From Desulfurellales bacterium (GTDB taxonomy: Bacteria > Campylobacterota_A > Desulfurellia > Desulfurellales > Hippeaceae), in NCBI GenBank assembly GCA_027014115.1, contig JALWEJ010000017.1, forward strand, positions 1 to 57,177: DNA of 57,177 nucleotides, read 5' to 3'. The notes under the pieces are model-generated. The model did no database searches. It was not told the DNA's origin and saw only the letters and a list, made by a program, of their open reading frames with translations. Made by a program: the position numbers and the translations under genes. Within the stretch, counting starts at the first letter, position 1. Each line of letters opens with the position of its first letter. Of the stretch, positions 7,131 through 24,419 are shown one piece after another.

Positions 7131-7159
7131 GTAATTGGTTTTTGAAAAATGTGAAATTT

Positions 7160-7297
7160 GCAACAACGGTTAAGTATATGAGGCGTTGGGCGTTTTGGAA
7201 CACCTAATTTTCAATTTACTATGTTGTTTATTTATATTCATAAGCTTTTAATTTAACTGCTTGCTGCCCAATGCCTTATATACATTGTTGTAGGGCG
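7160..7297 (-). repeat. attC-like hairpin element 1 (downstream of the N4-type MTase)
   Basis: On the minus strand it begins just after the MTase stop with CCCTACAACAATGTATATAA and ends with CATATACTTAACCGTTGTTG. The outer arms pair: + strand 7164-7191 against 7266-7290, about 25 nt each with few mismatches. Length, end-to-end imperfect dyad and position right after a gene are like integron attC sites. The ends are not the canonical RYYYAAC/GTTRRRY. The middle and 3' part are similar to the element at 11406-11529 (GGTGT..C, ACCGTTGT). Confidence 0.6.
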
Positions 7298-7300
7298 TTT

Positions 7301-8224: not shown

Positions 8225-8227
8225 GAT

Positions 8228-9082
8228 TTATTCACCTATTAAACTTAAAAATTTCTCTGCTTTTGATATATCATCTTTTTCTTTTGCAGAAATGGTTATT
8301 ATTTGTCCTAATTTTCTTTTAGGCAACATTGAAGAAAAGAAATTCATATCAGAATTTACTACTTCTCTAATATAATTGCTTAAAACTTGATAATCACTGA
8401 ATGTTTGAAACCCTTTACCTTTTGTACTAAAAATAAAATCATCAGTTGGATTTGGATATAATGAGATAAAGCTTTGAATAATTCCGGCCTTTTTTAAAAA
8501 ATCTACTTTTTTTGAATAATTTTTTGTTATTGGACTATTCCCTAAAATTATTATAGGAATTTTTGTTGATTTTGTTCCCGAAACTCGAATATTTATTGAT
8601 TTCCCAATGGCTTTAAGCATTGAGTCAGAACGAAGGATTGAAGGATTCCCTTTATGTGATTTGTAATCGCCTATATAATTAACTTGTCCATTTTCATATT
8701 TGTAATTGTTTACAATGCTCATTTTAATTTCAAAAAGCAATTTTATATTTTCCGCTTTTTGTTGGATTTCATTAGTCGTACAAAATGCCAAATCTGCATC
8801 ACTCTGTATAGATAATCCAAGTTCAGGGCAAACTACACTATTTACTGCAAATAATCCTAAACTTTCAGCAATTGGTTGAAAAAAATCTTTACTCCATTTT
8901 TCTGTATATTGTCCAATAAGTGAATTTCTGCTTTGTAACGTTTGTCGTTCTGCACTTTTTCCTTTCGGGACATAGGCAAAATATCCATCTGTTAAATTAT
9001 AAAATAACTGCTCTGGCGAAGCAAAATTTCTCATTGCTTCAATAAAAAAATTCTTTTCAGTTTCAATGTCCCAAAAATTCAT
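8228..9082 (-). CDS. Type II restriction endonuclease, PD-(D/E)XK-like, unnamed family
   Basis: 284 aa from the ATG at 9082, chosen because AAGGA lies 7 nt upstream; an in-frame upstream ATG at 9109 lies inside the promoter-leader. The probable catalytic core is SIQSDADLAF followed by LLFEIKMS (D...ExK). The assignment rests mainly on the intact DNA methyltransferase 3 nt downstream, the usual REase-MTase layout. I do not recognise the specific restriction family. The upstream box TATCTTTG resembles a Bacteroidota -7 element. It is likely functional, since both genes of the pair are open. Confidence 0.72.
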   Translation of the reverse strand: MNFWDIETEKNFFIEAMRNFASPEQLFYNLTDGYFAYVPKGKSAERQTLQSRNSLIGQYTEKWSKDFFQPIAESLGLFAVNSVVCPELGLSIQSDADLAFCTTNEIQQKAENIKLLFEIKMSIVNNYKYENGQVNYIGDYKSHKGNPSILRSDSMLKAIGKSINIRVSGTKSTKIPIIILGNSPITKNYSKKVDFLKKAGIIQSFISLYPNPTDDFIFSTKGKGFQTFSDYQVLSNYIREVVNSDMNFFSSMLPKRKLGQIITISAKEKDDISKAEKFLSLIGE

Positions 9083-9106
9083 ATTTATTCCTTTTAATTT
9101 AAAATA

Positions 9107-9114
9107 CAAAGATA
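9107..9114 (-). promoter_or_regulatory. Bacteroidota-type -7 box before the REase gene
   Basis: TATCTTTG on the minus strand fits TAnnTTTG exactly, 24 nt before the ATG. No TTG is found at the -33 distance, so this alone is weak; compare the full match before the Fic gene at 12592. Confidence 0.4.
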
Positions 9115-9154
9115 ATATTTATATATCTGTTCATCTTATTCGGTCTCTTTAAAT

Positions 9155-9317
9155 GCCCTACAACGGTTATGTATACATATTGTTCTTATACAGCCAAAGT
9201 GAAGGGATAAGAACAATTGTTTATACTTCCCATTTACCATTTCCATTTCTCCCGCTAAAAGTTTCCGTTTATGCATAAATCATCATTGTATTTTTTACTT
9301 TATACGTTGTAAGCCGC
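9155..9317 (-). repeat. attC-like hairpin element 2
   Basis: On the minus strand it starts GCGGCTTACAACGTATAAAG and ends GTATACATAACCGTTGTAGG, so the termini are inverted copies of each other and match elements 1 and 3 (TACAAC...GTATA and ACCGTTGT). An inner perfect 10-bp arm pair, TTGTTCTTAT (9180-9189) and ATAAGAACAA (9207-9216), gives an extra hairpin. It lies 11 nt downstream of the small gene ending at 9329. Confidence 0.6.
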
Positions 9318-9328
9318 ATTTAGTCAAG

Positions 9329-9544
9329 TTATTGCAAATCTACATCTTTTTCACTCTCACCAATAAGCTGAATATCCAAATATTCTTTTGGTATTTCTTG
9401 AGTTATCTCACCGTTAGGCAGTTGAAAAAAAAGCTGCTTATTTTTACTGTAAACATTTGCTATACCTTTTTCCAAGCTCTCTTTTTGTGCATCCTTAACA
9501 GCTTTGTTGCCAATTTTCAATATCATAACCTCAAGACTGTTCAT
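9329..9544 (-). CDS. Small protein of unknown function, possible Fic partner
   Basis: 71 aa from the ATG at 9544, which has AGGAG 8 nt upstream; an in-frame GTG at 9553 is less well placed. The composition is mixed: a helical VMILKIGNKAVKDAQKESLE stretch, then a short segment IANVYSKNKQLFFQLPNGEI and an acidic tail. It resembles the small antitoxin-like proteins often found beside Fic or other toxin genes, but I do not recognise a family. It lies on the same strand 240 nt after the class III Fic gene, with an attC-like element right behind it. Confidence 0.5.
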   Translation of the reverse strand: MNSLEVMILKIGNKAVKDAQKESLEKGIANVYSKNKQLFFQLPNGEITQEIPKEYLDIQLIGESEKDVDLQ

Positions 9545-9553
9545 TTTTTCCAC

Positions 9554-9782
9554 TCCTAATAAAACAATTTCTTTATTTCTTCATTATAAACCGTATCCTG
9601 TGTTTCTACAAATTCCAGGCTTTAATTTTGTATTCATACAAATACTTTGGGTCATATTTTTTCGCTGCTTCATTAGTAAAAAACTTATTAAAATAACTGA
9701 TAATTCATCCAATCTTGAATTATTCATCATTAAAAATTCATAATTCGACATCACTCCAACATCCTCAATCCTAAACCTGTTA
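9554..9782. other. Non-coding or decayed stretch between Fic and the small gene
   Basis: Only short frames on both strands, with no start and ribosome site combination. A minus-strand frame ending KYLYEYKIKAWNL just before 9600 may be the tail of a lost gene. Nothing else is seen. Confidence 0.3.
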
Positions 9783-10397
9783 TCACAATTCCTCAATCTT
9801 GTAATTATTATACCCTTCATAAAAATAGCTTATATCTATATTTTTCATAAACAAATCTCTATTATCAATATCATCTGTCAGGGCTTGTTTTAAAATATAT
9901 TTTATCTCTATATCCTTCACTACACTTCTTTGCATTGCGCTTAGATAATCCTCTTTATCTACTTTACTCCAATCAATCACTACTTTTAATTCTTTTTTCA
10001 GCATCAAATCAAGCCAGATTCTCATACTCCTGCCGTTTCCCTCGCGAAATGGATGGGCTATATTCATCTCTACATATTTTTCTATAATTTCATCAAAATT
10101 ACTTTGCGGCATTTTATCTATATGCTTTAATGATTCTTGCAGATACATCACAGGAGCAAATCTAAAACCGCCTTTTGAAATATTTACATCTCTAATCTTT
10201 CCTGAAAAATCGTAAATATCTTCAAAAAGGTATCTGTGAATATATGCAAGTCCTTTAAAGGTTCCTACCTCTGCTTTATCAATATCACCGGAGTCATAAA
10301 GCTGTTTTGCTTTTTGTTTGCTGAGCTTTTCTTCTATTTTTGCCAATTCTATAGGGTCGGTTATGTTTAGTCTGTTTTTTAGGATTTTATTGCCCAT
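9783..10397 (-). CDS. fic: Fic-family AMP transferase, class III (C-terminal inhibitory helix)
   Basis: 204 aa. The catalytic motif [16 protein letters not shown] is complete, with the histidine for AMP transfer and the G-N-G-R anion hole. The flap region [17 protein letters not shown] precedes it. Near the C terminus SYFYEG fits the inhibitory (S/T)xxxE(G/N) pattern that marks class III Fic proteins such as Neisseria NmFic, which self-inhibit through this helix. Such enzymes AMPylate DNA gyrase/topoisomerase IV or similar targets. The start is set by GGGGGAGG before ATG 10397. The promoter style and ribosome site look native to the host, unlike the other Fic gene. Confidence 0.85.
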
Positions 10398-10475
10398 TTT
10401 TTAACCTCCCCCTGTATTTTTAGCATTCTTTGGGAATCATGTTACTTTTCAACTCCTCAGAACACTACTTTACAC

Positions 10476-10564
10476 TTTTAGACTTTTGCAGTACAAATGC
10501 TACACTTTGCACCACTTCACCGCGGTTTTACAAATTTAACATACAATACGCAAAAAGTCTAAAA
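10476..10564. repeat. Imperfect inverted repeat upstream of the class III Fic gene
   Basis: TTTTAGACTTTTGC (10476-10489) pairs with GCAAAAAGTCTAAAA (10550-10564), with one base difference and a 60-nt loop. The octamer TACACTTT occurs twice close by. It may be a regulatory dyad or another decayed hairpin element. No gene is seen in 10398-10636. Confidence 0.4.
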
Positions 10565-10636
10565 ACATTTGATTTTGCCGTTTATATTGATTGTGATATT
10601 TTTCGCAAGCAAATAGGCGTAAATTTATGGTAATAG

Positions 10637-10765
10637 CTACTCCAAGGTATAACCAGAGCTTCCTGTTTGATTTAGAAGTATATTGCCCCATTTGTCAAGA
10701 CAAATTTCTCCAAGAGCCCAACCACCACCGCCAGGGTTGTTTACTTCCTTAAAAATAAATGCTAT
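10637..10765 (-). pseudogene. C-terminal remnant of an unidentified gene
   Basis: A 42-codon open stretch with no start codon reads FKEVNNPGGGGWALGEICLD then KWGNILLNQTGSSGYTLE and stops at 10637. The regular Gly/Trp/Asn-rich pattern looks like the end of a real protein. A stop lies directly upstream, so only the tail survives. Family not recognised. Between 10766 and 10881 there is another possible tail, SAIKNDDTLTWERLFRKW, fused to the end of the next gene. Confidence 0.4.
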
Positions 10766-10881
10766 TTAAAAGAAGAATTTTTATAGTCATTTTCTAAATA
10801 TAACGCCATCACGAATAAAACCAACTCAACTCCCTTGCCATTTTCTAAATAACCGTTCCCATGTTAAAGTATCGTCATTTT

Positions 10882-11268
10882 TTATAGCTGACTCCCATCA
10901 ATCAAATTATAATGACCGGGAGAAATTTCAGCCAATAATACTGGGCGAGAAACATCAACAGAATCTATATATGATTCGCCGATAGATGAAAAAGATTGGG
11001 GAAAATCAGCCACCGTTACTTCTACAAGATCGATTTCATCAGAATTATTTTTTATATACTCGAGAATCTTTGTGATATTAAATACAAAAATGCCGTTGCG
11101 AAACAGTTCGTCGCCTTTATTAATAGGACATGGGGTGAAATTGTCATTTGCTTCTATCTTTTCGGCGGATTGAAGTCTCTCCAAATCAAAATTTGATCTT
11201 TTCACCATCACCTCTTGCTGTATTTGCGCTTTTTCTGCTGAAGTATCACTAACTTTTCCATAGGCCAA
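10882..11268 (-). pseudogene. Truncated ParB-like small protein
   Basis: A 128-codon frame with a probable TTG start at 11268 (an internal ATG is possible). The conserved part runs CPINKGDELFRNGIFVFNIT ... IDLVEVTVADFPQSFSSIGE ... VSRPVLLAEISPGHYNLIDG. In relatives I recall, IDG is followed by NHR and a further helical segment. Here it is followed by SQL and a stop, so the ParB-like nucleotide-binding loop is broken. The function is unknown even when intact. It is separated from the Fic gene on the right by an attC-like element. Confidence 0.5.
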
Positions 11269-11405
11269 ACAATTTATTCTACCTACACTTTATACACTAT
11301 GAAGAATTAATAACAAAAATTATCAAAAGTTGCAAAAAATGTAAGTTTCGATAATTTTATCCTGACATCTTCGGTAAAATAGCAATGCAACGCTGTTTTT
11401 TCAGT

Positions 11406-11529
11406 GCTACACAACGGTAAATTGTATGAGTAGTGGCTGGTATTTTGCACACCTATGTTCTTTTATTTATATTTGCCCCATTTTTAGCACTTTGCATGCC
11501 ATTATTTATACACAATGTTAGCCAAAGTG
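11406..11529 (-). repeat. attC-like hairpin element 3 (downstream of the larger Fic gene)
   Basis: On the minus strand it starts a few bases after the Fic stop with CTTTGGCTAACATTGTGTAT and ends CATACAATTTACCGTTGTGT. The two ends form an imperfect dyad of about 25 nt per arm. The middle (AACATAGGTGTGCAAAATACC) aligns with element 1 (AACATAG...GGTGTTCCAAAACGCC), which shows common ancestry. Confidence 0.6.
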
Positions 11530-11533
11530 TTTT

Positions 11534-12592
11534 TTATTTCTTTGTTAGTAAATTCATTAATCGTTCATTGATATAATAATTACCTGTTCCCAATTTTTCT
11601 TTTCTTAATAAACCGTCTTTTGCCAATTCATTTAAATATTTAGCAGCTGTTATTCTTGAAACACTTAGATCTTTCTCTACAAATTCTATTTTGGTATAGG
11701 GATGTTTAAATAAGTTGTTTAATAAATCTTGATTGTAAAATTTATAATTATCACGTAATAAGTTTTTATATTCAAACATTAAATCTCTTATTTTACCGAT
11801 TAATTCAATCGTTTCTTTTGATATTTGTTCTATTCCGTCTAACATAAACAGTAGCCAATTTTCCCAATTGTCGGTTTTTCTGACTTCCTGCAATAATTTA
11901 TAATAATCTGCCTTGTTTAAAATAATATAGCGACTTAAATACAGTATTGGTAAATTCAATAGGTCTTTCATTGCTAAGTATAGAACATTAATTATCCTTC
12001 CTGTTCTACCATTTCCGTCATAAAAAGGATGAATACTTTCAAATTGGTAATAAATTATTGCCATTTTTACCAATGGGTCAAAATCGGACATTGTATCATC
12101 ATTGATAAATTGTTCCAGATTTGCCATTAAGTTTAAAATTTCGGAATATTCTTGTGGTGGGGTATAAACTGTTTCTCCTGTTGTAGCATTTTTTAGAGCT
12201 GTTCCGGGAAGTTTCCTAAAACCGGCTTTGTTTTTCTCTAATTCAGATTGAATTTCAATTATGTCATTATTCGTTAATATTTTTTTTCTTGATATTAGGG
12301 CAAATCCTTTTCTTAATGCTGATATGTAATTTTGAACTTTTTTGGCATTTAATGATTTAAAACTTTCAAAATTTAAATCCGCTTTGTAAATCTCATCGTG
12401 CGTTGTAATAATATTATCTATTGCGGAACTATCTTTTGCTTCTTGCAATCCTAATGTATTAATCAAAATGTTTTCATTTGGGATTGTAGAAACAACACCT
12501 TTTAATTCTGCTAATGCACGATGAGCTGATGCAAGCTTTTTTAAAACTCGTTTTGTCTCAATATCTTTTTCTATTGGCAACTCCTTCAACAT
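11534..12592 (-). CDS. Fic-family protein with N-terminal inhibitory segment and winged helix
   Basis: 352 aa from ATG 12592, which is preceded by AAAAGGAAA. An upstream in-frame ATG (12661) would place the promoter inside the gene. Order: N-terminal FIC_N-like helices with SSAIDN near residue 70 (position of the inhibitory (S/T)xxxE(G/N) motif of class II, here with Asp for Glu); the catalytic motif HPFYDGNGRTGRI near 200; and a C-terminal winged helix, TKIEFVEKDLSVSRITAAKY. It likely AMPylates a protein partner and may regulate its own expression. A Bacteroidota-like promoter and a trailing attC-like element suggest import as a cassette. Confidence 0.82.
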   Translation of the reverse strand: MLKELPIEKDIETKRVLKKLASAHRALAELKGVVSTIPNENILINTLGLQEAKDSSAIDNIITTHDEIYKADLNFESFKSLNAKKVQNYISALRKGFALISRKKILTNNDIIEIQSELEKNKAGFRKLPGTALKNATTGETVYTPPQEYSEILNLMANLEQFINDDTMSDFDPLVKMAIIYYQFESIHPFYDGNGRTGRIINVLYLAMKDLLNLPILYLSRYIILNKADYYKLLQEVRKTDNWENWLLFMLDGIEQISKETIELIGKIRDLMFEYKNLLRDNYKFYNQDLLNNLFKHPYTKIEFVEKDLSVSRITAAKYLNELAKDGLLRKEKLGTGNYYINERLMNLLTKK

Positions 12593-12630
12593 TCTATTTT
12601 CCTTTTGTAAAGTTTTTTCTATTTTCTTTA

Positions 12631-12661
12631 CAAATATACACCCTTCTGATAAGAAAATCAA
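12631..12661 (-). promoter_or_regulatory. Bacteroidota-type promoter (TTG-N20-TATATTTG) of the Fic gene
   Basis: On the minus strand TTG (12659-12661), 20 nt, then TATATTTG (12631-12638). This matches the -33 TTG / -7 TAnnTTTG consensus used by the Bacteroidota housekeeping sigma factor. It lies 38 nt before the chosen start codon. Confidence 0.55.
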
Positions 12662-12742
12662 ATAATCTTTACATAGTGATTGTATAATGATAAGTTTTCT
12701 GGGTTTTCTTTACATTACATATTGGTAGTATTAGGATATATT

Positions 12743-13105
12743 CTATTGTTTATACAAGCCTAAATGGATTTTAATGGCTGCGTCTAATTTTTTTATTAAA
12801 TCTTCCGGTAATTTCCCAAGTTCGGATGTTATGCGTTTTTTATCAACTGTTCTTATTTGATTTGCTTTGGCTTTGCAATCCCTATCCAGATTTGCTGCAC
12901 CCTTTGGCATAAAAACCTCGAAAGGATAAACTTTATCTATCCTTGACGATGTTATTGGAACTATTGTTATGGTTTCTGCATATTGATTGTTGATGTCATT
13001 TGACACAACAACAGCAGGACGTACTTTATTGATTTCAGCGCCTACTGTAGGACTTAAGTTTACAAGATAGACAAAGCCTCTTTTAATTTTATTAGATTCC
13101 GTCAT
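12743..13105 (-). CDS. mazF: MazF/PemK-family endoribonuclease toxin
   Basis: 120 aa with the family pattern: KRGFVYLVNLSPTVGAEINK, VRPAVVVSND, ITIVPITSSR, and DCKAKANQIRTVDKKRI. The conserved Arg of RPAVV and Thr/Ser of PITS form the RNase active site in MazF proteins, which cleave mRNA at short sequences. It overlaps the upstream antitoxin gene by 14 nt, which couples their translation. The frame is complete and of normal length. Confidence 0.9.
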   Translation of the reverse strand: MTESNKIKRGFVYLVNLSPTVGAEINKVRPAVVVSNDINNQYAETITIVPITSSRIDKVYPFEVFMPKGAANLDRDCKAKANQIRTVDKKRITSELGKLPEDLIKKLDAAIKIHLGLYKQ

Positions 13106-13319
13106 TTATGGTTACTTCCCACTCTTTGGATAACTCCAAATCCTCTTTTGTTGTTGATAAATATCCCTCTTTGAGTTCAGATATAAGTTTTTCTTTGTCT
13201 TTTTGTCTTTTATATTCCCTTACGGCTTCAGCTATAAAAGCCGATTTATTTTTCACACCTTTCAGTATATCTGCCACATCTTCAGGAACAGTTATATTGA
13301 GCCTTTTTGCTGTATTCAT
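13092..13319 (-). CDS. Ribbon-helix-helix (MazE/CopG-like) antitoxin
   Basis: 75 aa from ATG 13319, with an excellent AAGGAGGTG site; the longer frame upstream starts in the promoter. KRLNITVPEDVADILKGVKN with the following KSAFIAEAVREYKRQKDK is a ribbon-helix-helix domain. The acidic C-terminal tail (LSTTKEDLELSKEWEV) would wrap the MazF dimer. It is the antitoxin and autorepressor of the pair; see the dyad at 13337-13348. Confidence 0.85.
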   Translation of the reverse strand: MNTAKRLNITVPEDVADILKGVKNKSAFIAEAVREYKRQKDKEKLISELKEGYLSTTKEDLELSKEWEVTINDGI

Positions 13320-13336
13320 AATACACCTCCTTATCT

Positions 13337-13373
13337 GTATTAAAATACTAAAACTTCTGATTATGAAAATCAA
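13337..13373 (-). promoter_or_regulatory. mazEF-like promoter and operator dyad
   Basis: TTGATT (13368-13373), a 17-nt spacer and TAGTAT (13345-13350) on the minus strand. The dyad GTATT-N2-AATAC (13337-13348) overlaps the -10 and start region, a natural site for the antitoxin. Confidence 0.5.
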
Positions 13374-13387
13374 GTACAATGATTATT

Positions 13388-13632: not shown

Positions 13633-14586
13633 GTGATGCTTTATGTTCTGAGTGCGCTTCAATTGATTTTTGTAGTTATATTTGCACCGCTTGCTGTCGG
13701 GCTGTTTCATACATTGACAGAAAAATTCGAATCAAAAGTCGGACCTTCTGTTTTTCAGCCGTACTATGATTTATACAAACTGTTCAACAAACAGAGCGTA
13801 ATACCGAAGGTTGCATCGCCTCTATTTCAGATTGTGCCGTATTTAACATTTTCAATGTATCTGTTTTTAACACTCGTTCTTCCCATCATAACCGCTTTTC
13901 CTTTGTCATTTGGACCTGTTGTTGACTTTATCGGCGGAGGATTGGTCTTTGGTGCAATAGGTGCACTCAAAAAAATTGCCTCACTTGACTCAAGAAGCAA
14001 CTATGCCCATCTCGGTACATCGAGAACATCCAGCATAGGAGCACTTTCAGAACCCATTATTGTTTTGATATTTATAACATTCGGCGTCATATCGCACACA
14101 AACAACCCTTATGTAATAAACAACATCATGCAGACATCTTCTCAGTGGTATTTCTCTTTGGTTCACTGGTTTGTTGTGTTTGCATTTTTTATGGCTTTGC
14201 TTGTAGAAACCGGAAAACTTCCCATAGAGTCCCATTCAAACAACGAATTTGGAATGATTGACCAGGCAATAAAGCTTGAATATTCAGGTGCTGAACTTGC
14301 CTTGATGAAATGGGGAGGATACATAAAACAGTTCCTTTTAATGAGCGTATTTTTAAACGATTTTCTAATGCCTTTCTGGGTACCCATGAAAATTTCCCTA
14401 AGCGGCGTTTTGATATATTCAATTATTCATCTTGTAAAACTGTTTTTCTTGATTGTAATCTTTGCAGCAATCCAATCAACGATTTCAAAATACAAGCTCT
14501 TTAAAAATTTTGAATACATAGCTGTTGCTTTTGCCTTTGCCTTTTTAGCCATACTTGTCTATTTTACAACAGGGGGTTCTGTATGA
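13633..14586 (+). CDS. HyfC/HycD/NuoH-like membrane subunit of the Ehr complex
   Basis: 317 aa with about eight membrane segments. Family signatures are VFQPYYDLYKLFNKQ near 45, SNYAHLGTSRTSSIG (cytoplasmic loop) near 120, and the glutamate-bearing ALLVETGKLPIES ... FGMIDQAIKLEYSGAELALM near 190-220. In complex I, NuoH links the peripheral arm to the ion-pumping arm. GTG at 13633 is 8 nt after AAGGA; an ATG follows at 13636. First gene of a six-gene operon with 1-11 nt spacings or overlaps. A dyad GTTCT-N5-AGAAC (13571-13585) lies upstream, with no convincing -35. Confidence 0.85.
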   Translation: MMLYVLSALQLIFVVIFAPLAVGLFHTLTEKFESKVGPSVFQPYYDLYKLFNKQSVIPKVASPLFQIVPYLTFSMYLFLTLVLPIITAFPLSFGPVVDFIGGGLVFGAIGALKKIASLDSRSNYAHLGTSRTSSIGALSEPIIVLIFITFGVISHTNNPYVINNIMQTSSQWYFSLVHWFVVFAFFMALLVETGKLPIESHSNNEFGMIDQAIKLEYSGAELALMKWGGYIKQFLLMSVFLNDFLMPFWVPMKISLSGVLIYSIIHLVKLFFLIVIFAAIQSTISKYKLFKNFEYIAVAFAFAFLAILVYFTTGGSV

Positions 14587-15221
14587 AAGAGGCGTTTATC
14601 ATTGTCGGATTTTTGGAGATTACACTTGCAATATTTATGCAGTGGCAAATATATTTAAAAAAAATAGTAACAACATTTTCAATATCATCCTATGCAATAT
14701 CAATATTCCTTGCAGTAGACGGTATCGTTCTTAACAATACAAATCTTTTGGTACTTTCTGCACTTACTGCCGTAATCAGAGGCTTTTTCATACCTCATTT
14801 CATAAGAAAAAAACTCAATAAGGAATGCTACTTGGAAAGAGAGATAAAAGCAATCATACCTGTTGCTGCTTCCATTGTAGTCTCACTTGTGTTTGTTGTT
14901 GCAAGTTATATTGTTTATCATTCAACCTTATACAGCTTTATTAACATACCCGGTGGTTCAATTCCCATAGCCCTTTTGTTTCAGGGAATATTCCTGATAA
15001 TTTCACGAAACAATGCATTTGTTCAACTTGTGGGCTACATGGTTGCAGAAAACAGTCTTTTTTTGTTTGGCGGATATCTATTTCCGGAGCTGCCGTTTAT
15101 TATTGAAGGCGGCATTTTGCTTGATTTGATTGGGGTTGTAATGATATCCGGAATAATTATGAAGCTAAGAGAAGAAAATGTTTCAAGTATAGTTGACGAA
15201 TTTGAGGAATTTAAGGGGTAG
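14583..15221 (+). CDS. HyfE-like membrane subunit (NuoK-like) of the Ehr complex
   Basis: 212 aa, about seven membrane helices, overlapping the previous gene by 4 nt (ATGA). HyfE proteins are NuoK-like with extra helices; matching features are the loop HFIRKKLNKE and the conserved LVGYMVAENSLFLFGGYLFPE, where the buried glutamate sits in NuoK-type proton paths. The length is normal for HyfE (about 215 aa). It would form part of the ion channel between the antiporter-like subunits and HyfC. Confidence 0.8.
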   Translation: MKEAFIIVGFLEITLAIFMQWQIYLKKIVTTFSISSYAISIFLAVDGIVLNNTNLLVLSALTAVIRGFFIPHFIRKKLNKECYLEREIKAIIPVAASIVVSLVFVVASYIVYHSTLYSFINIPGGSIPIALLFQGIFLIISRNNAFVQLVGYMVAENSLFLFGGYLFPELPFIIEGGILLDLIGVVMISGIIMKLREENVSSIVDEFEEFKG

Positions 15222-15224
15222 AAT

Positions 15225-16598
15225 ATGATTTATACTTATCTGTTGTTTACACTGCTGATTCTTGCCTCTCTATCATGTTTTGCCGCAAAAGAAAAATCCG
15301 CAACACTCATAACTTTGTTTTCTTCTTTTGTAAGCATTATACTTTCACTCATTATATGGCTCAGCAGTACTATTTCTACAAATTTCCTATACATAGACCC
15401 AATATCAAAAATTATGCTCATTGTTACTGCCGTTATCTATACAACAACCTCACTATTTAGCGTAAGTTATTTTAAACATATAAAAAAACCTCTTCTCAAA
15501 CAAAATCTGTATTGGGCTTTTTTGAATTTGTTTGTTTTGAGTATGTTTTTCAGCGTTATTGCTGCAAATCTCGGCCTATTGTGGGTTGGAATTGAGGCAA
15601 CAACCATAACAAGCGCCCTGCTTGTTGCAATTGACAACAACTACCCGTCAATCGAAGCAAGCTGGAGATATATAATCATTGTCTCGGTAGGACTTATTGT
15701 CTCTTTGGTGGGTATTGTATTTATATACGCTCAAGCACACACACTCGATATTGCCTACATGATTCAAAACCATCAAGACAAAAACAGACTTATCCTTATA
15801 GGCTCTGCAATGGCAATAATAGGATTCGGCACAAAAGCCGGCATATTCCCTATGCACACATGGCTTCCTGATGTTCACGGACGCTCAATAGCGCCAATCA
15901 GCGCCATTTTTTCATCTGTCCTTCTACCCTCAGCCCTGTTTGGTATAATCAGAATATCCCAGATAGCACCGTTTGGACAGATAAAGCACTTTATGTTTGC
16001 TTTGGGGCTTTTGAGTGTTGTGTTTGCATCGATATTTATGGTAAATCAAAAGTATTATAAAAGGCTTTTTGCCTACTCGTCCATTGAAAATATGGGTGTC
16101 ATATTAATTGGACTATCTTTGGGAAAAACCGGGCTTTTAGGCTCTATTGTGCTTTTAATTTCACACGCATTTGCAAAATCATCGGCGTTTTATCTTACCG
16201 GCAATATACTCTCAGTCTACAAAACGAGAAAAATAAGCGATGTGAATATGCTTGTTAAAAATATGCCCTACACTGCATACGGTTTAATACTCACATCTTT
16301 GGCTGTAACCGGTGCTCCGCCTTTTGCCACATTTGTCGGTGAATTTTTGATTATTGCTGCTGTTTATAAAATATACGGATTTGCATATTTTTCTATTCTT
16401 TTATTATCTTTACTTGTCGCATTCTTATCTGTAAATTATAAAATTTCAAGAATGTCATTTTTGGATGGAAAAGCTATGCAAAACAACAGCTGCGATATGA
16501 TAAGTGCTGCTGTACCCTTAATAAACACAGCTTTGGCATTTGCAGTTTTATTTGCTATACCTGCTATAAATAAAATCTTAAGTGGTGTTTTGTTATGA
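15225..16598 (+). CDS. HyfF/NuoN-like antiporter subunit of the Ehr complex
   Basis: 457 aa, about 13-14 membrane helices of the NADH:quinone antiporter/Mrp family. LLWVGIEATTITSALLVA carries the conserved transmembrane glutamate. GFGTKAGIFPMHTWLPDVHG has the conserved Lys and His of the half-channel. RLFAYSSIENMGVILIGL is the second lysine/serine helix region. HyfF-type subunits pump protons or sodium. The product is slightly shorter than E. coli HyfF (526 aa). It overlaps the next gene by 4 nt. Confidence 0.85.
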   Translation: MIYTYLLFTLLILASLSCFAAKEKSATLITLFSSFVSIILSLIIWLSSTISTNFLYIDPISKIMLIVTAVIYTTTSLFSVSYFKHIKKPLLKQNLYWAFLNLFVLSMFFSVIAANLGLLWVGIEATTITSALLVAIDNNYPSIEASWRYIIIVSVGLIVSLVGIVFIYAQAHTLDIAYMIQNHQDKNRLILIGSAMAIIGFGTKAGIFPMHTWLPDVHGRSIAPISAIFSSVLLPSALFGIIRISQIAPFGQIKHFMFALGLLSVVFASIFMVNQKYYKRLFAYSSIENMGVILIGLSLGKTGLLGSIVLLISHAFAKSSAFYLTGNILSVYKTRKISDVNMLVKNMPYTAYGLILTSLAVTGAPPFATFVGEFLIIAAVYKIYGFAYFSILLLSLLVAFLSVNYKISRMSFLDGKAMQNNSCDMISAAVPLINTALAFAVLFAIPAINKILSGVLL

Positions 16599-17824
16599 GA
16601 CTGCTTGGTGTATTTGAAAAAGATTCAAAAGAAATGCTGCTTTTACAGGATAAAAATACATTTTTCATACAGGATAGAGATTCAATAAATGAATCGTTTG
16701 ATAACTATGAGCTCTTAAAAAACCGCGATAAATATATAGGAAACGGCAAAACGGAAGGAAGCGGTGTATTCAATTTTAGATACGGACCTGTAACGGGCGG
16801 TGTATCCGATGCAGGTGTGTTTAATATTTATACACACGGAGAAAGAATTTTATCTGTCAACATAGACCCAAGTTACAAAAAAAGGGGTATTGAAAAACTC
16901 ATTATTGGAAACGATATACAAACATCCCTCATGCTTAGTCAAAGCATTTGCTCAAACTTTGCACTTTCACATTCAAATGCTTTTTTAACAGCAGTTGAAG
17001 ATGCAGGGAACTTCAGCATAGACACTACAACAAAAAGAATAAGAATAATTGCTGCAGAACTTGAAAGAATCTACAACCATCTCTATGTGATAGCGAGGCT
17101 TTCAAAGGGCGCATCACAAAATGTTTTAACATCCCATCTTGAGGGGCTTTTTGAAGAATCGCTCAGAACAAACCAAATTTTTTCGGGTTCAAGATTTCTA
17201 AAGAATTTAAACGGCTTTTTTATAGATAAAAACACAATAGGCAGCTTAAATGAAATAAAAAACAGAACAGAGAAAATAAAAAAAGATTTTAAAGAACTCT
17301 ATTCTCATTCACTCGAAAGCTGGAATTTTATCGACCGAATATACAACACTGCTGTTTTAACAGGTAAACATGCTCTAAGTATCGGCGTAACAGGTCCAAC
17401 GCTGAGGGCATGCAGCATAGCCGAAGATTCAAGAACATACAACAAACTATACGAAAACTTCCACCCAATAACAAAAGACAGATGCGACGCCCTATCAAGG
17501 ATGCAGGTTAGAGCAGAAGAGATTATGCAATCATGTGAGATAATTGAACAGCAGATAGATAAAATAAGCAGTGAAGAACAGCACAAAAAAGATATAGACA
17601 TATCAAAAATATCCGGAATGGGCATAGGATACTGTGAGTCCCCGACCGGTCTTGTTGCATATTTTATTGAACTTAAAAAAGGTGTCGTTGAAAATGTCTA
17701 TATCTCAACACCGTCTGTATTTGGCTTTAAGGCATTTTGTGATTCGTTTGTAGGATATATCTTTACTGACTTTAGTTTTTCTTACGATTCATTCGGTATA
17801 AATTTTGCGGACTGCTCAAGGTAG
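16595..17824 (+). CDS. HyfG/NuoD-like large subunit lacking the NiFe site (Ehr)
   Basis: 409 aa. Homology to the hydrogenase/NuoD large subunit is clear: FRYGPVTGGVSDAGVFNIYT, DPSYKKRGIEKL, RIRIIAAELERIYNHL, and GMGIGYCESPTG. The two CxxC motifs that hold NiFe in HycE/HyfG are altered. The N-terminal one reads ICSNFALSHS (CxxF) and the C-terminal one FADCSR at the very end (FxxC). So two of four ligands are gone and a normal NiFe centre is unlikely. The NuoC-like N-terminal domain of HycE is also missing. It therefore belongs to the energy-converting hydrogenase-related group. Confidence 0.82.
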   Translation: MRLLGVFEKDSKEMLLLQDKNTFFIQDRDSINESFDNYELLKNRDKYIGNGKTEGSGVFNFRYGPVTGGVSDAGVFNIYTHGERILSVNIDPSYKKRGIEKLIIGNDIQTSLMLSQSICSNFALSHSNAFLTAVEDAGNFSIDTTTKRIRIIAAELERIYNHLYVIARLSKGASQNVLTSHLEGLFEESLRTNQIFSGSRFLKNLNGFFIDKNTIGSLNEIKNRTEKIKKDFKELYSHSLESWNFIDRIYNTAVLTGKHALSIGVTGPTLRACSIAEDSRTYNKLYENFHPITKDRCDALSRMQVRAEEIMQSCEIIEQQIDKISSEEQHKKDIDISKISGMGIGYCESPTGLVAYFIELKKGVVENVYISTPSVFGFKAFCDSFVGYIFTDFSFSYDSFGINFADCSR

Positions 17825-17835
17825 GAGAGTTTAAA

Positions 17836-18288
17836 ATGAAATCATGGGCTCTGTTTGGTATAACAAGAAAACTTACTGAAAAGTTTGACAAATCAGATAA
17901 AGACACAAAACAGCTAAATAGGATATTCAAAAACTCTCTTCACATTTATCCGATAGATGTTGGAAACAGCGGTGATTTAAACCTTGAAATGATGGCTTTG
18001 TCTGCGCCGCAGTACAACATTCACAGATTCGGCATATTTTTTACAGATTCACCAAGACATGCAGACATACTGATGGTTCTCGGAAGACCGACAAAGGCTA
18101 TGATTGAGCCGTTAAAAGAAACAATAAATCAACTACCTGAGCCGTTTGGTATCGTTGTTTTTGAAAACAGTCAATTAACGGGTATTGACATAGAAACACT
18201 CAAGCTTCCAAACGTTGTTGCTCATATAAAAGAAGAAGTTGATGCCAAACGCATATTATCTGTGCTTTTGGACATTATGGGGAAATAG
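17836..18288 (+). CDS. HyfI/NuoB-like small subunit without any cysteine (Ehr)
   Basis: 150 aa. The NuoB/HycG fold is recognisable from SLHIYPIDVGNSGDLNLEMM, then ALSAPQYNIHRFGIFFTDSP and RHADILMVLGRPTKA. In relatives the first block is ..TGSCNGCDIE.. and supplies two cysteines of the [4Fe-4S] cluster next to the active site (N2 in complex I). Here these are Gly-Asn-Ser-Gly. The protein contains no cysteine at all, so no iron-sulfur cluster can be bound. The start is ATG 17836 after GGAGAG. Spacing is 11 nt to the large subunit and 1 nt to HyfB. Confidence 0.82.
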   Translation: MKSWALFGITRKLTEKFDKSDKDTKQLNRIFKNSLHIYPIDVGNSGDLNLEMMALSAPQYNIHRFGIFFTDSPRHADILMVLGRPTKAMIEPLKETINQLPEPFGIVVFENSQLTGIDIETLKLPNVVAHIKEEVDAKRILSVLLDIMGK

Positions 18289-18289
18289 C

Positions 18290-20170
18290 ATGATATATAT
18301 AAAAATAGCTCTGTTTGGATACTTAACAGCCGCATTGGCAGGTTTTTTCGATAAAAAGACAAGCTATATCTTGGGCTCTTTATCATCCATTTCATTCCTT
18401 GCATCCGGAATTCTTTCATACAACAACGATATCACAATAACACTCATGCAAATTTCTCAGAATGTATCTTTGTCTTTTAAATTAGACCATTTAAGCTGCA
18501 TATTCATAATCATATCTTCTATATCTTGGATTGCCGTAGAACTGTTTTCTGTAGATTTTGGAATGCTGTATAGAAAAAGAATGGCGGTTCTTTTGAATCT
18601 AGGATTCTTTGGGATGGCTGTTGTATTTTTATCCAATGATATGCTTACCTTTCTTTTTGGATATGAAATAATGACAATTACATCATACCTTCTTATAACA
18701 GAAAAATCAAACTCCCAAAAAGGGGCTTTTTTGTTTCTCGCATTCAGCGAACTATCAACAATACTGTTAATATCGGCTTTTGCTGTAGGATTTATAAATT
18801 CAGGAAATATAAATCTATCAAACATCAAACCATCAGACAACTTCTACTTTCTGTTTTTGGCATCTTTGGGCTTCATTATAAAAATGGATATAGCACCGTT
18901 TCATGTATGGATGAGAAAAGCCTATGAAAAAGCAGCTGCAAATGTACTGGCAGTATTGAGTTCATCTGTTACTCTTGTCGGTGTTTATGGACTGTTTAGA
19001 ATAATATCTGCAACAAATTCATCCCATCTTTGGGGAATACTGGCTTTGTCGATTGGAGCAATCTCTGCTTTCTGGGGAGCAGTACACGCCGCAGCATCCA
19101 AAGGCATAAAAACACTGCCGGCATATTCAACAACCGAAAACAACGGCTTAATCCTTGCACTGCTTGGTCTGTATGTACTTACCCTTTCACTCAAGGCAGA
19201 ATCAACACTTGCAACATTTGCATATCTCGGTGCCGTAATATTGGCATTTGCACACTCAATTTCAAAAACACTGCTGTTTTTATCAATAGGCCAGGCTCAA
19301 GAGGCACTTGGTGAGGATGAAATAAACAATATACGCGGCATACACTCATCGGTAGGAAAAATTCCGGCTTTCGGTATTATTGTATCTGGACTTTCATTTG
19401 GCGCTTTTCCTCCGCTTATCGGCTATGCTGCAGAATGGATTGTGCTTGAATCCATATTTCAATCATCACAATTCCCAGATATACTTGATAGAATCATAAG
19501 TTCATCAAGCGGTGTATTGATGGCTTTGGCTATGGGCTTTGCAACCTTTGCAATGATAAAGCTTATGGGCTATTCCGCTTTGGGCTATGACCACGGGAAA
19601 AAGGCAAAAAAAATCAGTGTTGCTTTTATGAATTCAGCCCAACTGATACTTATGACTGCCGTATTTTTGGGCGGTATATTAATAACATTTGAATTTGCAT
19701 ACCTTGGACACAAAGAGTTTGTAATAGGCGCACTATCTGTACCCCAAGGTTTTCTGCTTGCAAGCGCAAAACCGGTTTTCGGTGTTATAGCACCTCTGTT
19801 TTATGCCGTAGTCATATCGGTATTTTTCATATTCTGCCTGCTTATTTATTTAAAGAAAAGACATACGACAAAAAAGGTTACATCATGGAACGGCGGACTT
19901 GAGCTAAAAGAAAATGAATACTTCACAACAAGCGGCTATTCATACACGATTGAATATATTTTAAGATGGATTTATAGAACAAAAGAAACGCTGCACAACA
20001 AAAAAGCACTTGTAACAACCAAAGATGTTGCAGAGTTTCCTTATAATTTGATAACAGATGCAGCAAAAAAATTATCATTTTATATCAGTAGATACATAAT
20101 GAACGGAAACACTCATCAGTATATTGCCTATATTGTCATTATGTTTATTTTGAGTTTTTTGATTTTTTAA
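18290..20170 (+). CDS. HyfB/NuoL-like antiporter subunit of the Ehr complex
   Basis: 626 aa from ATG 18290, just after the previous stop; the frame is open further upstream but that would overlap the small subunit. About 15-16 membrane helices. FLFGYEIMTITSYLLI has the conserved helix-5 glutamate. FIIKMDIAPFHVWMRKAYEKA carries the Lys/His of the first half-channel. TENNGLILALLGL lies on the central helix. The C-terminal part has KVTSWNGGLELKENEYFTTS, typical of HyfB. Last gene of the operon, closed by a hairpin terminator. Confidence 0.85.
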   Translation: MIYIKIALFGYLTAALAGFFDKKTSYILGSLSSISFLASGILSYNNDITITLMQISQNVSLSFKLDHLSCIFIIISSISWIAVELFSVDFGMLYRKRMAVLLNLGFFGMAVVFLSNDMLTFLFGYEIMTITSYLLITEKSNSQKGAFLFLAFSELSTILLISAFAVGFINSGNINLSNIKPSDNFYFLFLASLGFIIKMDIAPFHVWMRKAYEKAAANVLAVLSSSVTLVGVYGLFRIISATNSSHLWGILALSIGAISAFWGAVHAAASKGIKTLPAYSTTENNGLILALLGLYVLTLSLKAESTLATFAYLGAVILAFAHSISKTLLFLSIGQAQEALGEDEINNIRGIHSSVGKIPAFGIIVSGLSFGAFPPLIGYAAEWIVLESIFQSSQFPDILDRIISSSSGVLMALAMGFATFAMIKLMGYSALGYDHGKKAKKISVAFMNSAQLILMTAVFLGGILITFEFAYLGHKEFVIGALSVPQGFLLASAKPVFGVIAPLFYAVVISVFFIFCLLIYLKKRHTTKKVTSWNGGLELKENEYFTTSGYSYTIEYILRWIYRTKETLHNKKALVTTKDVAEFPYNLITDAAKKLSFYISRYIMNGNTHQYIAYIVIMFILSFLIF

Positions 20171-20213: not shown

Positions 20214-20939
20214 TCACCTATAAAACTCACTCCCTCTCACTATCCTTCTTGATGTGTAGGGTATGCTTTTGTGTTTTCTGTGAAGTCTTTTTAGTGTGTA
20301 TTTGGCTTTTCTGTAGCTTTTAAAGGGTCCTACATAGGTTCTAAACCATGTTCTATTGTGTATTCTTACCCTTCTTATGCATACAGGGGCTTTTGTTATT
20401 CTTCTTAGTCTTCTTAACTCTTTTACGGCATTTCTAAACTTTCTGAATGAGCCTATCTTTATGTAGTACTCTCTTGTCTTTGGTGTGTATTTTACTATTG
20501 AGGGATAATAATGAATCCTCTTTAGGGCAAGTGGGCATCCGCTGTTTTGTTTAACACCCGCAGTGAAGGGGCATGCATCCAAATCATCTGTTATGCCGTC
20601 ATTGTCTGAGTCTCTTGTCATGCTCTTTTTATCTATAACCACCATTCTTATCAGCTCTTCTGGGCATCCGTCTGTATCATCTATATTGTTGTAGTTTTCT
20701 TTGTCCATGGGGCATTTGTCTTTACTGTCGGGTATACAGTCGCAGTCTTTGTCTTTGTAGCATCCCCAGAAGTTATACTGAGGACATGTACCCCAAGGTG
20801 TTGTCACCTTGCTTAAGTTCTGGGTTGTGCAGCATGGAGCCTTCTTTTGAACAACAACTGTTGTATCCGAATATGCGTTTAATGAAAAGACAATAAGGAA
20901 GGCAAACAGAAAAAGAGAGATATTAAAAGCTCTTTTCAT
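20214..20939 (-). CDS. Secreted Ca-binding (thrombospondin type 3-like) protein with SPOR-like C terminus
   Basis: 241 aa. Signal peptide (KRAFNISLFLFAFLIVFSLN, cleavage after about residue 24). A cysteine- and aspartate-rich block follows: TPWGTCPQYNFWGCYKDKDC, the Ca-binding repeat DKCPMDKENYNNIDDTDGCP, and a second repeat DSDNDGITDDLDACP. The last 80 residues (YYIKIGSFRKFRNAVKELRR ... WFRTYVGPFKSYRKAKYTLK) look like a SPOR domain, which binds denuded peptidoglycan. It is likely periplasmic or outer-membrane associated. The central block is 60-70% identical by eye to the next lipoprotein, so the two are paralogues. Confidence 0.7.
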   Translation of the reverse strand: MKRAFNISLFLFAFLIVFSLNAYSDTTVVVQKKAPCCTTQNLSKVTTPWGTCPQYNFWGCYKDKDCDCIPDSKDKCPMDKENYNNIDDTDGCPEELIRMVVIDKKSMTRDSDNDGITDDLDACPFTAGVKQNSGCPLALKRIHYYPSIVKYTPKTREYYIKIGSFRKFRNAVKELRRLRRITKAPVCIRRVRIHNRTWFRTYVGPFKSYRKAKYTLKRLHRKHKSIPYTSRRIVRGSEFYR

Positions 20940-20954
20940 ACATCTCCTCCAAAC

Positions 20955-20985
20955 AAAAAAGGGATAGACTCAATAAGTCTATCCC
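20955..20985 (-). terminator. Rho-independent terminator between the two TSP3-repeat genes
   Basis: A perfect 10-bp stem GGGATAGACT/AGTCTATCCC with a 5-nt loop is followed on the minus strand by TTTTTT. It ends the transcript of the lipoprotein gene (stop at 21008), only 15 nt before the next gene's start, so the downstream gene depends on read-through. Confidence 0.88.
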
Positions 20986-21007
20986 GAAGTAATGTGTGCA
21001 TGTTTTG

Positions 21008-21415
21008 TTAATTGAGAGGACATCCGTTATTCTTCGGTGTTCCTGCAACAAAAGGACATACATCTTTATCGTCTGTCACACCGTCATTGTCGGAGTCTTT
21101 CAAAACCCTTCTGATTATAGGTCTTACTATGATTTTATCCGGGCATCCGTCCTTGTCATCAAGGTTGTTGTAGTTTTCTTTATCCATAGGACACTTGTCT
21201 GTTGCATCGGGATTGCAGTCACAGTCTTTATCATTTGCACATCCCCAGAAGTTATACTGAGGGCATGCACCCCAAGGTGTCATAACCTTGCTCAGTTTGA
21301 CTGTTGAGCAGCAGGATTTCTTTGTCTTAACTATCTTTGTCTGCTGAGTACAGCCTGTCATTGTAAGTGTTGCAGCTACTGCAGCCACACTCAAGAATGC
21401 ATAGATGCGTTTCAT
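21008..21415 (-). CDS. Lipoprotein with cysteine-rich and Ca-binding repeats
   Basis: 135 aa. The lipobox LTMTGC near residue 22 predicts a lipid-anchored N terminus. Next come KKSCCSTVKLSKVMTPWGAC, PQYNFWGCANDKDCDCNPD, the repeat DKCPMDKENYNNLDDKDGCP and DSDNDGVTDDKDVCPF. The Asp-rich repeats fit the thrombospondin type 3/OmpA-linker pattern that binds calcium. It lacks the SPOR domain of its paralogue. AGGAGA precedes the ATG. The role is unknown; the CC and WGC/CDC clusters could be disulfides or metal sites. Confidence 0.7.
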   Translation of the reverse strand: MKRIYAFLSVAAVAATLTMTGCTQQTKIVKTKKSCCSTVKLSKVMTPWGACPQYNFWGCANDKDCDCNPDATDKCPMDKENYNNLDDKDGCPDKIIVRPIIRRVLKDSDNDGVTDDKDVCPFVAGTPKNNGCPLN

Positions 21416-21500
21416 ACCAATCTCCTTTTTCTTAGTCTTTTAATCTTTTTGCCTTGTTTTAATAAATTACCTTTTTGTTGTATTCTTGGTTTTTGCTTAT

Positions 21501-21785
21501 TTACTTGATTGTTACAACAGTAACAGGTGATGAACCGCAGCATCCTCCGCAATCGGGAAGACCGCAGTTTAGAACACACTGGTCTGCATGCTGTAAGTAT
21601 ACACATGTCTTATCCAGTATACACTTAGGAGGACCATAGTTTACAATAACCGTTTTTGTTGTCGGACATATACTGCATGATGATTTAACAACCACAACAT
21701 CGGCAGCAGACGATGTTAAAGAAACACCAAACGATAAAATACCAACCATGAATAAAGCAGCTACCAAAGATTTAACCTTCTGCAT
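21501..21785 (-). CDS. Small exported cysteine-rich protein
   Basis: 94 aa. A signal peptide (VAALFMVGILSFGVSLTSSA, cut near residue 28) is followed by a mature part of about 66 aa with ten cysteines: SSCSICP, KCILDKTCVYLQHADQCVLN, and CGLPDCGGCCGSSP. No family recognised. The even number of cysteines suggests disulfides, or binding of metal or sulfur species. It is the first of three exported Cys-rich genes on this strand; GTGAGG lies before the ATG. The long leader upstream hints at post-transcriptional control. Confidence 0.6.
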   Translation of the reverse strand: MQKVKSLVAALFMVGILSFGVSLTSSAADVVVVKSSCSICPTTKTVIVNYGPPKCILDKTCVYLQHADQCVLNCGLPDCGGCCGSSPVTVVTIK

Positions 21786-22922: not shown

Positions 22923-22928
22923 TTGCCT

Positions 22929-24419
22929 ATGAATGTAAAAATAAAAATGCCATCATCCACCATAGAGATAGAAACTGACGATTCAAATATTTTAACAACG
23001 CTTGCAAAAAACTCTATTTTTATAAATGCCTACTGCGGCGGACGCGGTATTTGCAATAAATGCATAATACGATACATAAACAACCCGCCAAACCCAACAG
23101 AAAAAGAAAACTCGATTTTCACACAAGAGGAAATAAAAAACGGTTACAGACTGGCATGTCTACACAAACTGAAAAACAATGACGAAATTGAGGTTTTCAA
23201 ATCAAAACCCTCTTTCTCCAAAATTAACTCAAATGTATGTGCAGATGACAATTCAAATTTCATGGCAGTAGACATTGGGACAACAACAATTTCTCTTGCT
23301 CTGATATCCAATAAACAAATAATAGATTCTGTCAATTTATTAAATCCTCAGGTTGCATTCGGCGGTGATGTTGTTAGCAGAATATCCTATTCAAACGAGC
23401 ATTCACAGCAAATACTCTCAAAAATTTTAAACAATGCAGTAGAAAATACCATAAACAAGCTTTTACAATTACACAAAACAGATAAACTATCAGAAATAGT
23501 CGTATCTGCAAATCCCACAATGATTGCATTTTTTCTTAACAAAAACCCTAAAAGCATTGGAGAGTATCCATACACCCCACCATTTACAGGCTCTCTGCAC
23601 ACAAAATGGAAAGGCATAAAAACATACATCCCTCCAATTGTCGGAGCATTTGTCGGTTCTGATATTACATCGGGTATTTTAAACATCAACCTTGATGAGG
23701 ATTTTTTATTTGTGGATATAGGAACAAATTGTGAATTTATCTTAAAACACCAAGACAAAATATTTGCAGCAAGCATACCGGGTGGACCTGCTCTGGAGGG
23801 CAGCGGAATAGATTATGGAACAATTGCAAAATCAGGTGCAGTAGAAAAGGTGGCTTTCGACGGTATGCTCAAAGTTTATACAATCAACAATGAAAAGCCA
23901 AACGGCATAACAGGCTCGGGGCTTATAAGCTCAATAGCTCTTTTAAGAAAACACGGCTTAATTGATTCAAGCGGCAGACTGCTCGAGGCGTGGGAAATAG
24001 AAGATGCCCCTCTTCAATTAATAAATAAGATAAAAAAAGAGGGCTTTGAGCTTACACAAAATATATACCTAACCCAAAATTCAATAAGAGAATTTCAACT
24101 TGTAAAAGCATCTCTTCATGCCGGCATCAAGATACTTGCTAAAAAAACAGATGTAGACATATCAAAGATAAAAACAATATATTTATCTGGTGGTTTTACA
24201 AAATCCATTTCCAAAGAAGATATAAACATTTCGGATTTTCTGAGGCTAAAAGGCAAATTTGTATTTTTAGGCAACAGCTCCATAAGCGGTGCAGGTATAC
24301 TGTTTTGCAAAAAAAATAAAGAAAAAATAGAATCCACTGCAAAAAAAATTGAATATGTGGAAATCTCAAATGAAAAAGAATTTCAAAACTATTATATAGA
24401 GGGTATGAATTTTGATTAG
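22929..24419 (+). CDS. RACo-like corrinoid-protein reductive activator (DUF4445/ASKHA ATPase with [2Fe-2S] domain)
   Basis: 496 aa from ATG 22929 (a TTG two codons earlier is possible). Residues 1-75 are a plant-type [2Fe-2S] ferredoxin domain with CGGRGICNKC and a later LACLHK cysteine. The middle and C-terminal parts are the ASKHA-type domain of RACo/DUF4445: FMAVDIGTTTISLAL, NPQVAFGGDVVSRISY, FLFVDIGTNCEFIL, GSGLISSIALL, and IYLSGGFTKS. Family members use ATP and an electron from the cluster to bring Co(II) corrinoid proteins back to Co(I). The MetH at 48299 lacks its own reactivation domain and could be the client. Confidence 0.8.
   Translation: MNVKIKMPSSTIEIETDDSNILTTLAKNSIFINAYCGGRGICNKCIIRYINNPPNPTEKENSIFTQEEIKNGYRLACLHKLKNNDEIEVFKSKPSFSKINSNVCADDNSNFMAVDIGTTTISLALISNKQIIDSVNLLNPQVAFGGDVVSRISYSNEHSQQILSKILNNAVENTINKLLQLHKTDKLSEIVVSANPTMIAFFLNKNPKSIGEYPYTPPFTGSLHTKWKGIKTYIPPIVGAFVGSDITSGILNINLDEDFLFVDIGTNCEFILKHQDKIFAASIPGGPALEGSGIDYGTIAKSGAVEKVAFDGMLKVYTINNEKPNGITGSGLISSIALLRKHGLIDSSGRLLEAWEIEDAPLQLINKIKKEGFELTQNIYLTQNSIREFQLVKASLHAGIKILAKKTDVDISKIKTIYLSGGFTKSISKEDINISDFLRLKGKFVFLGNSSISGAGILFCKKNKEKIESTAKKIEYVEISNEKEFQNYYIEGMNFD

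Follow-up and report, generated by a model that had tools for sequence, protein, structure and literature searches.

A six-gene Ehr-type operon from Desulfurellales appears to have lost its redox sites while keeping a complex I-type ion path

Introduction

In complex I, a redox reaction in one arm drives proton pumping at distances of up to 200 angstroms, and the linkage between the two is still argued. What could a machine of this superfamily do if no site for electrons were left in it? The question is raised by a six-gene operon in a 57,177-nucleotide stretch of DNA from a Desulfurellales bacterium (GenBank assembly GCA_027014115.1, contig JALWEJ010000017.1, positions 1 to 57,177 of the forward strand; hereafter the window). 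The operon encodes, in this order, the membrane subunits HyfC, HyfE and HyfF, a large and a small peripheral subunit of the hydrogenase/complex I type, and the membrane subunit HyfB. An original prediction, made from the letters of the window, had described a complex I/hydrogenase-like ion pump with no visible redox cofactor at 16595-18288. Those coordinates cover the two peripheral genes only; the feature is the whole operon, and family matches over 13633-20170 bear out the four membrane and two peripheral subunits that had been proposed (Table 1). Ehr complexes that lack NiFe ligands have been described before, and no function has been settled for them (PMC4378227, PMC10284858, PMC6349859).

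Results

Alignment of the large and small subunits with hydrogenase, complex I and Ehr sets, as the prediction had suggested, revealed that the NiFe and the proximal-cluster ligands are both absent. In the aligned large subunit, neither the RxCGxCxxxH nor the DPCxxCxxH/R motif of group 4 [NiFe] hydrogenases is present. It also lacks the EAPRG outer-sphere arginine and the His and Tyr with which NuoD binds quinone. The first of the four NiFe cysteines alone is retained: the L1 motif reads SICSNFALSH, with C119 at the first ligand position and F122 at the second. At the L2 motif, where D392-R409 aligns without gaps with E. coli HycE and HyfG and with a CxxC-bearing Ehr-like sequence (L123), the first and second cysteine positions are taken by N403 and D406, and C407 lies one residue downstream at no ligand position. 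The CxxF that had been reported for this subunit (C119, F122) is therefore correct, but the accompanying FxxC (FADC) was out of register. The chain terminates at R409 and has no C-terminal extension of the kind removed in NiFe maturation.

Among 26 sequences of relatives, F122, H126 and D406 are the same in all, and C119 is Cys in 25; it is Val in one further genome, and Ser or Val across two genomes in all. Position 403 varies between Asn, His and Phe. Of the two remaining cysteines, whose conservation had been put forward as a check, C119 thus holds up and C407 does not: the latter is Cys in 10 of the 26 and Ala or Leu in 16, which rules out disulfide or thiol chemistry between C119 and C407 as a general mechanism.

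The segments that line the former active site, which were picked from known motifs and not from the data, hold 21 invariant positions among 63 in the same set when 8.6 were expected (p 9e-6), and the L2 segment showed the strongest enrichment (9/21 invariant, 2.9 expected, p 7e-4). This pattern of invariance suggests that the former active-site pocket is still constrained, though an invariant Phe occupies one former ligand place. The AlphaFold2 model of the large subunit (predicted local distance difference test score, pLDDT, 91.6) found its best fold match in HycE of formate hydrogenlyase (template-modelling, TM, score 0.81). Loop 66-71 of the model, the counterpart of the mobile beta1-beta2 loop at the NuoD quinone site, is of low confidence.

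For the small subunit, the prediction that no cysteine remains where NuoB and HyfI bind [4Fe-4S] was confirmed, and indeed none occurs anywhere in its 150 residues. The first two proximal-cluster cysteine positions are S45 and L48 (Leu in 26/26), and the loop of the fourth NuoB cysteine (PGCPP) is deleted. Where NuoB and hydrogenases have YDxxR/YDxER, we found Y60-N61-x-H63, with N61 and H63 invariant; this YNxH signature is otherwise found only in the nearest ferredoxin-fused relatives (L117, L119, L125). The AlphaFold2 model (pLDDT 84.3) matches HycG and MbhJ in fold, and in the models the hydrogenase/complex I folds are retained in both peripheral subunits.

The operon holds no HyfH/NuoI-like ferredoxin gene, as had been stated, and no Mrp-type gene of the MrpA-G set. 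Across the neighbourhoods of the relatives fetched, no gene beyond the six recurs, redox genes included; local repeats come from close relatives only. The six genes would encode one self-contained complex. Taken together, the alignments and gene content provide good support for the view that every known redox site is gone: the NiFe ligands, the proximal [4Fe-4S] ligands, the ferredoxin-type subunit and the quinone head-group ligands.

The host genome (1.72 Mb, 99.1% complete) appears to have no capacity to build a NiFe site. It contains no HypD, and no protein in it reaches the family cut-off for a true NiFe large subunit. HypD is likewise absent from two other genomes with the operon (G020, 94% complete; G022, 87%). 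Most relatives have HypD (found in 16 of the 25 class members searched), and there it presumably serves the Hyb hydrogenase that has been described in the family (PMC5317093). Only two other pairs of NuoB and NuoD homologues are encoded in the host genome, each in its own complete operon: a full Nuo operon on contig C53 and, on contig C67 (L052 2269-12863), an MBX/MBS-type complex that is a second complex I relative. Because these NuoB homologues belong to operons of their own, there is no spare small subunit; a missing subunit encoded elsewhere is ruled out, and with it the second HyfI that might have joined the complex. The C67 complex is itself unusual, in that it has Mrp E/F/G/B-type subunits, MbhD/MbhE domains and a fused ferredoxin/flavin oxidoreductase subunit, and its large subunit is without both CxxC pairs (RICVPEP, ICPPEFDR).

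In a search of 61 genomes, the small subunit was found in 17 Desulfurellia genomes including the host, at 40-74% identity and with all frames intact, and all contigs of sufficient length show the six genes in identical order. Scanning of genome contigs recovered the same gene order in Thermotogota (Mesoaciditoga and others), Spirochaetota, Bacteroidota and unassigned genomes, and the operon also occurs in 3/4 genomes of one further small phylum. In all, carriers in other phyla number about 16-19, and the range extends over at least five phyla. When 386 genomes were searched, the family scored at least 193 bits and the next homologues at most 78 bits, leaving a clean gap between them. The cysteine-loss pattern is repeated with open frames in about 33 distinct genomes, and we found no family member in which the cluster or NiFe cysteines are restored, nor a relative with the same operon that keeps CxxC. 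This recurrence in constant gene order indicates that the operon is genuine and under selection. A sequencing error, which the prediction had named as one way in which it could fail, or a decaying operon has next to no chance of explaining why 30-odd genomes, from at least five phyla, share these substitutions and keep their frames open; we found no support for either and regard both as ruled out.

Ion-path residues were scored in 29-33 family rows aligned with E. coli NuoL, M, N, H, K and HyfB-F. In HyfC, D98, D119, E140, E192, E199, E216 and K269 are conserved in 28-29/29 rows; in HyfE, E156, E175 and D181 in 29/29; in HyfF, E124, K204, H314, K318 and E373 in 30/30, aligning with E144, K234, H348, A352 and E407 of NuoM; and in HyfB, E143, K215, H222, H339, K343 and E399 in 32-33/33. 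Across all ion-path positions, the charged residue is identical in at least 27/29 and up to 33/33 rows. The antiporter-like subunits carry the residues by which complex I antiporter-like subunits are judged, namely Glu in TM5, Lys in TM7 and Lys/Glu in TM12 (TM here denoting transmembrane helix). The equivalent complex I positions carry or couple proton movement (PMC7613608). By sequence, then, a complex I-type ion path is intact in the four membrane subunits.

HyfC is the most conserved subunit of the operon, with 75-85% identity to most relatives in the family and class. Between the host genome and G003, identity is 60% for the large subunit, 61% for the small subunit and 81% for HyfC, while in the Nuo operon of the same two genomes it is 93% for NuoD, 90% for NuoB and 83% for NuoH; the trend is the same for G006 and G002 (Nuo rows from non-orthologous operons were left out of the comparison). 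As judged from these identities, HyfC changes more slowly than the two peripheral subunits, opposite to what is seen in complex I, and constraint has moved from the peripheral arm to the membrane arm.

A maximum-likelihood tree built from 51 large subunits places those of the compact operon in a single clade (support 100/99) on a long stem. The clade sits on the Ehr side, a 37-row clade split at 100/99 from Nuo, MBH-type and Hyc/Hyf sequences, in which the reference Ehr rows were recognised by motif and gene content and not by name. Its nearest neighbours, L117, L119, L125 and L133, are placed with support of 83/87, which is not firm. They have the gene order C-E-F-large-small-B (in L117, HyfB would lie beyond the end of a short contig), and their small subunits of 246-284 aa have ferredoxin-like N-termini; the proximal-cluster cysteines are retained in L117, L119 and L125 and lost in L133. 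Since the nearest relatives have these ferredoxin-like N-termini, mostly together with the cluster cysteines, the ancestor probably had an electron wire that the compact clade lost.

The complete loss of the proximal cluster, to which the prediction had drawn attention, is not unique to this complex. Five other Ehr-type small subunits lack the cysteines (L078, L122, L128, L079, L133), and at least four loss events are needed on the large-subunit tree, with cysteine states assigned by eye. The losses apparently arose independently, with L122 and L128 counted together with L078, and the L078 group has Asp at two of the places (GSDNACEQE, GDDA, PGDPP). Elsewhere on the Ehr side, the operon L123 5732-8492 encodes an Ehr-like large subunit with both CxxC pairs (ERICGVCSFSH, NLCYSCTDL), and is possibly a surviving hydrogenase at the base of this side.

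Table 1. Positions in the window of the six-gene operon, its subunits and the altered ligand motifs.
Feature	Position	Strand	Basis or remark
Six-gene operon HyfC-HyfE-HyfF-large-small-HyfB	13633-20170	+	complete, tightly packed
HyfC/NuoH-like membrane subunit, 317 aa	13633..14586	+	PF00146 4e-28
HyfE-like membrane subunit (NuoK/J-like), 212 aa	14583..15221	+	NF008556 hydrogenase 4 membrane subunit 8e-09
HyfF antiporter-like subunit (NuoM/N family), 457 aa	15225..16598	+	PF00361 9e-51
Large subunit (NuoD/HyfG/EhrL fold), 409 aa	16595..17824	+	PF00346 5e-22; also matches PF00374
Former NiFe L1 motif within large subunit (C119, F122, H126)	16949..16972	+	alignment
Former NiFe L2 motif within large subunit (N403, D406, C407)	17801..17815	+	alignment
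Small subunit (NuoB/HyfI/EhrS fold), 150 aa	17836..18288	+	NF005012 NuoB 1.5e-12
Small subunit, place of first two proximal-cluster cysteines (S45, L48)	17968..17979	+	alignment
Small subunit Y60-N61-x-H63 signature	18013..18024	+	alignment
HyfB antiporter-like subunit (NuoL family), about 626 aa	18290..20170	+	PF00361 3.5e-27

For HyfB, the open reading frame list gives a TTG start at 18239; an ATG at 18290 lies directly 3' of the small subunit gene. Directly upstream of the operon, 1279-13379 on the minus strand is an apparent defence/toxin island with a ResIII/T5orf172 helicase, Eco57I-type and N6/N4 methylases, two Fic proteins and a PemK/MazF-like toxin with a small adjoining open reading frame. 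Downstream, 20214-21785 (minus strand) encodes small, cysteine-rich secreted proteins that bear SPOR and thrombospondin type 3-like repeats, 22923-24419 (plus strand) encodes a RACo-type corrinoid-activation protein, and a MetH-like protein is found at 48299-50713.

Discussion

With no redox site, an intact charge axis, a self-contained operon without a recurrent partner and a relaxed peripheral arm, the operon points to ion movement without electron transfer. We hypothesize that the complex, which we call compact Ehr, is a redox-dead cation/H+ exchanger or a gated proton channel with the hydrogenase-fold pair as its cap, a proposal to which we give roughly even chances. Ions would be carried by the antiporter-like subunits HyfF and HyfB, which the conserved line of charges would link to HyfC and HyfE. 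The large and small subunits would sit on HyfC as a cap without catalytic role, holding or gating it at the place where complex I passes the conformational change at its quinone site to the membrane arm. That the six proteins join in one complex, that it exchanges ions and which ones, and that the cap gates it are all deductions. A precedent comes from deactive, redox-idle mammalian complex I, for which an exchange of Na+ against H+ is reported (Roberts and Hirst 2012, cited in PMC4607728). Three points weigh against an exchanger. The pocket segments of the large subunit are more invariant than its remainder, which suggests that the pocket still does something; the operon lacks the Mrp-type subunits to which Na+ transport is attributed in MBH and Mrp complexes; and it is not obvious why a pure exchanger would need both peripheral subunits. 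The drivers that had been proposed at the outset were conformation, a partner protein, a small molecule or antiport; the evidence favours ion exchange and decides none of them.

The invariance of the pocket is accommodated if the former NiFe/quinone pocket was reused, so that a small molecule or one metal ion is bound there and this binding or chemistry drives or gates ion movement, loosely as the zinc protein DabA may be pictured on the NuoL-like DabB. C119, H126, N/H403 and D406 occupy or adjoin former ligand positions, three of them are nearly or fully invariant (C119, H126 and D406), the enrichment of invariant positions peaks in the L2 segment, and the counterpart of the mobile NuoD loop is modelled with low confidence. 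Yet an invariant F122 at the second cysteine position and F400 and F404 beside the L2 positions fit a plugged pocket, C119 is replaced by Ser or Val in two genomes, the Asn/His/Phe variation at 403 makes a poor metal site, and D406 aligns with a Glu of NuoD and may be structural. We regard reuse of the pocket as unlikely, though it is the main rival to the exchanger. A still broader idea, that a complex I-superfamily machine is energised by a source other than electrons, with ligand binding or conversion in the former pocket driving ion movement or being driven by it, seems to us improbable. Hidden redox chemistry is similarly improbable in our estimate. Here a diffusible ferredoxin, flavoprotein or quinone would act through a dissociable cofactor invisible in the sequence or through a separately encoded partner, as the ferredoxin-like domains fused to the small subunit in the nearest relatives, the many ferredoxin genes possible elsewhere in the genome, and the usual assumption that Ehr complexes couple redox reactions (PMC6349859) would allow. 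Without the proximal cluster, the NiFe site and the NuoD-type quinone His/Tyr, however, the complex offers no series of sites close enough together for electrons to tunnel, and no operon-linked redox gene was found in the relatives fetched.

Two further readings would assign the genes to systems already described. The two peripheral or the four membrane subunits might serve as alternative subunits of the Nuo or MBX-like complex, both of which the host genome encodes, but identity to those subunits is only about 25-30%, and the six-gene set is complete and always travels together, which makes this very unlikely. The HyfB/HyfF family matches and the automatic naming of the membrane subunits as hydrogenase 4 would suggest a working group 4 [NiFe] hydrogenase or formate hydrogenlyase; a 'formate-hydrogen lyase' is also listed for Desulfurella amilsii (PMC5317093), and we infer that it may be this operon. 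With the NiFe ligands and the proximal cluster absent and no HypD in the host genome, we reject this reading, which has practically no chance of being right. The genes match hydrogenase-4 models, and their annotation, possibly including that of the formate hydrogenlyase in the published Desulfurella genome, should be corrected. If the ion path and its cap do work without redox centres, compact Ehr would be a natural experiment on the membrane arm and heel of complex I alone.

Ion carriers of the NuoL family that function without redox cofactors are familiar from the Mrp antiporters and DAB (DabA/DabB). Mrp lacks a hydrogenase-fold cap and the DAB zinc protein has another fold, so the likeness to compact Ehr is one of analogy only. 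From Pyrococcus MBH, MBX and MBS, the operon differs in having neither metal ligands nor Mrp-type Na+ subunits, although its best PDB sequence matches are the MBH large subunit (6cfw_L) and MbhJ. It shares subunit types and folds with E. coli Hyf and Hyc (hydrogenase-4 and formate hydrogenlyase-1), whose HycE and HycG are the best fold matches, but unlike them it has no CxxC pairs, proximal cluster, HyfA/HyfH or C-terminal extension, and its host genome has no HypD. With complex I it has in common homologues of NuoB, D, H, K/J, L and M/N and the conserved membrane charge axis, whereas the NADH module, the N2 cluster ligands and the quinone His/Tyr are missing and there are two antiporter-like subunits instead of three.

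The closest likeness is to Ehr of Geobacter, Sulfobacillus, Nitrospira and others, with which the operon shares a group 4-like large subunit without NiFe ligands, a NuoB-like small subunit, HyfB/C/E/F-type membrane subunits in one operon, and the same side of the large-subunit tree. In contrast to the compact clade, most Ehr-type operons fetched keep the proximal-cluster cysteines and usually have another gene order, and most of their large subunits are 495-535 aa long with a NuoC-like N-terminal extension that the 409-residue compact subunit does not have; this NuoC-like domain is a trait of most Ehr-type sequences here and lies outside the published definition of Ehr. We found no description of the cofactor-free six-gene clade in the literature searched, which did not include the Ehr-defining Coppi 2005 and Marreiros 2013. 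The cofactor-free clade is thus best placed as a new variant of Ehr, whose NiFe-less complexes were already known.

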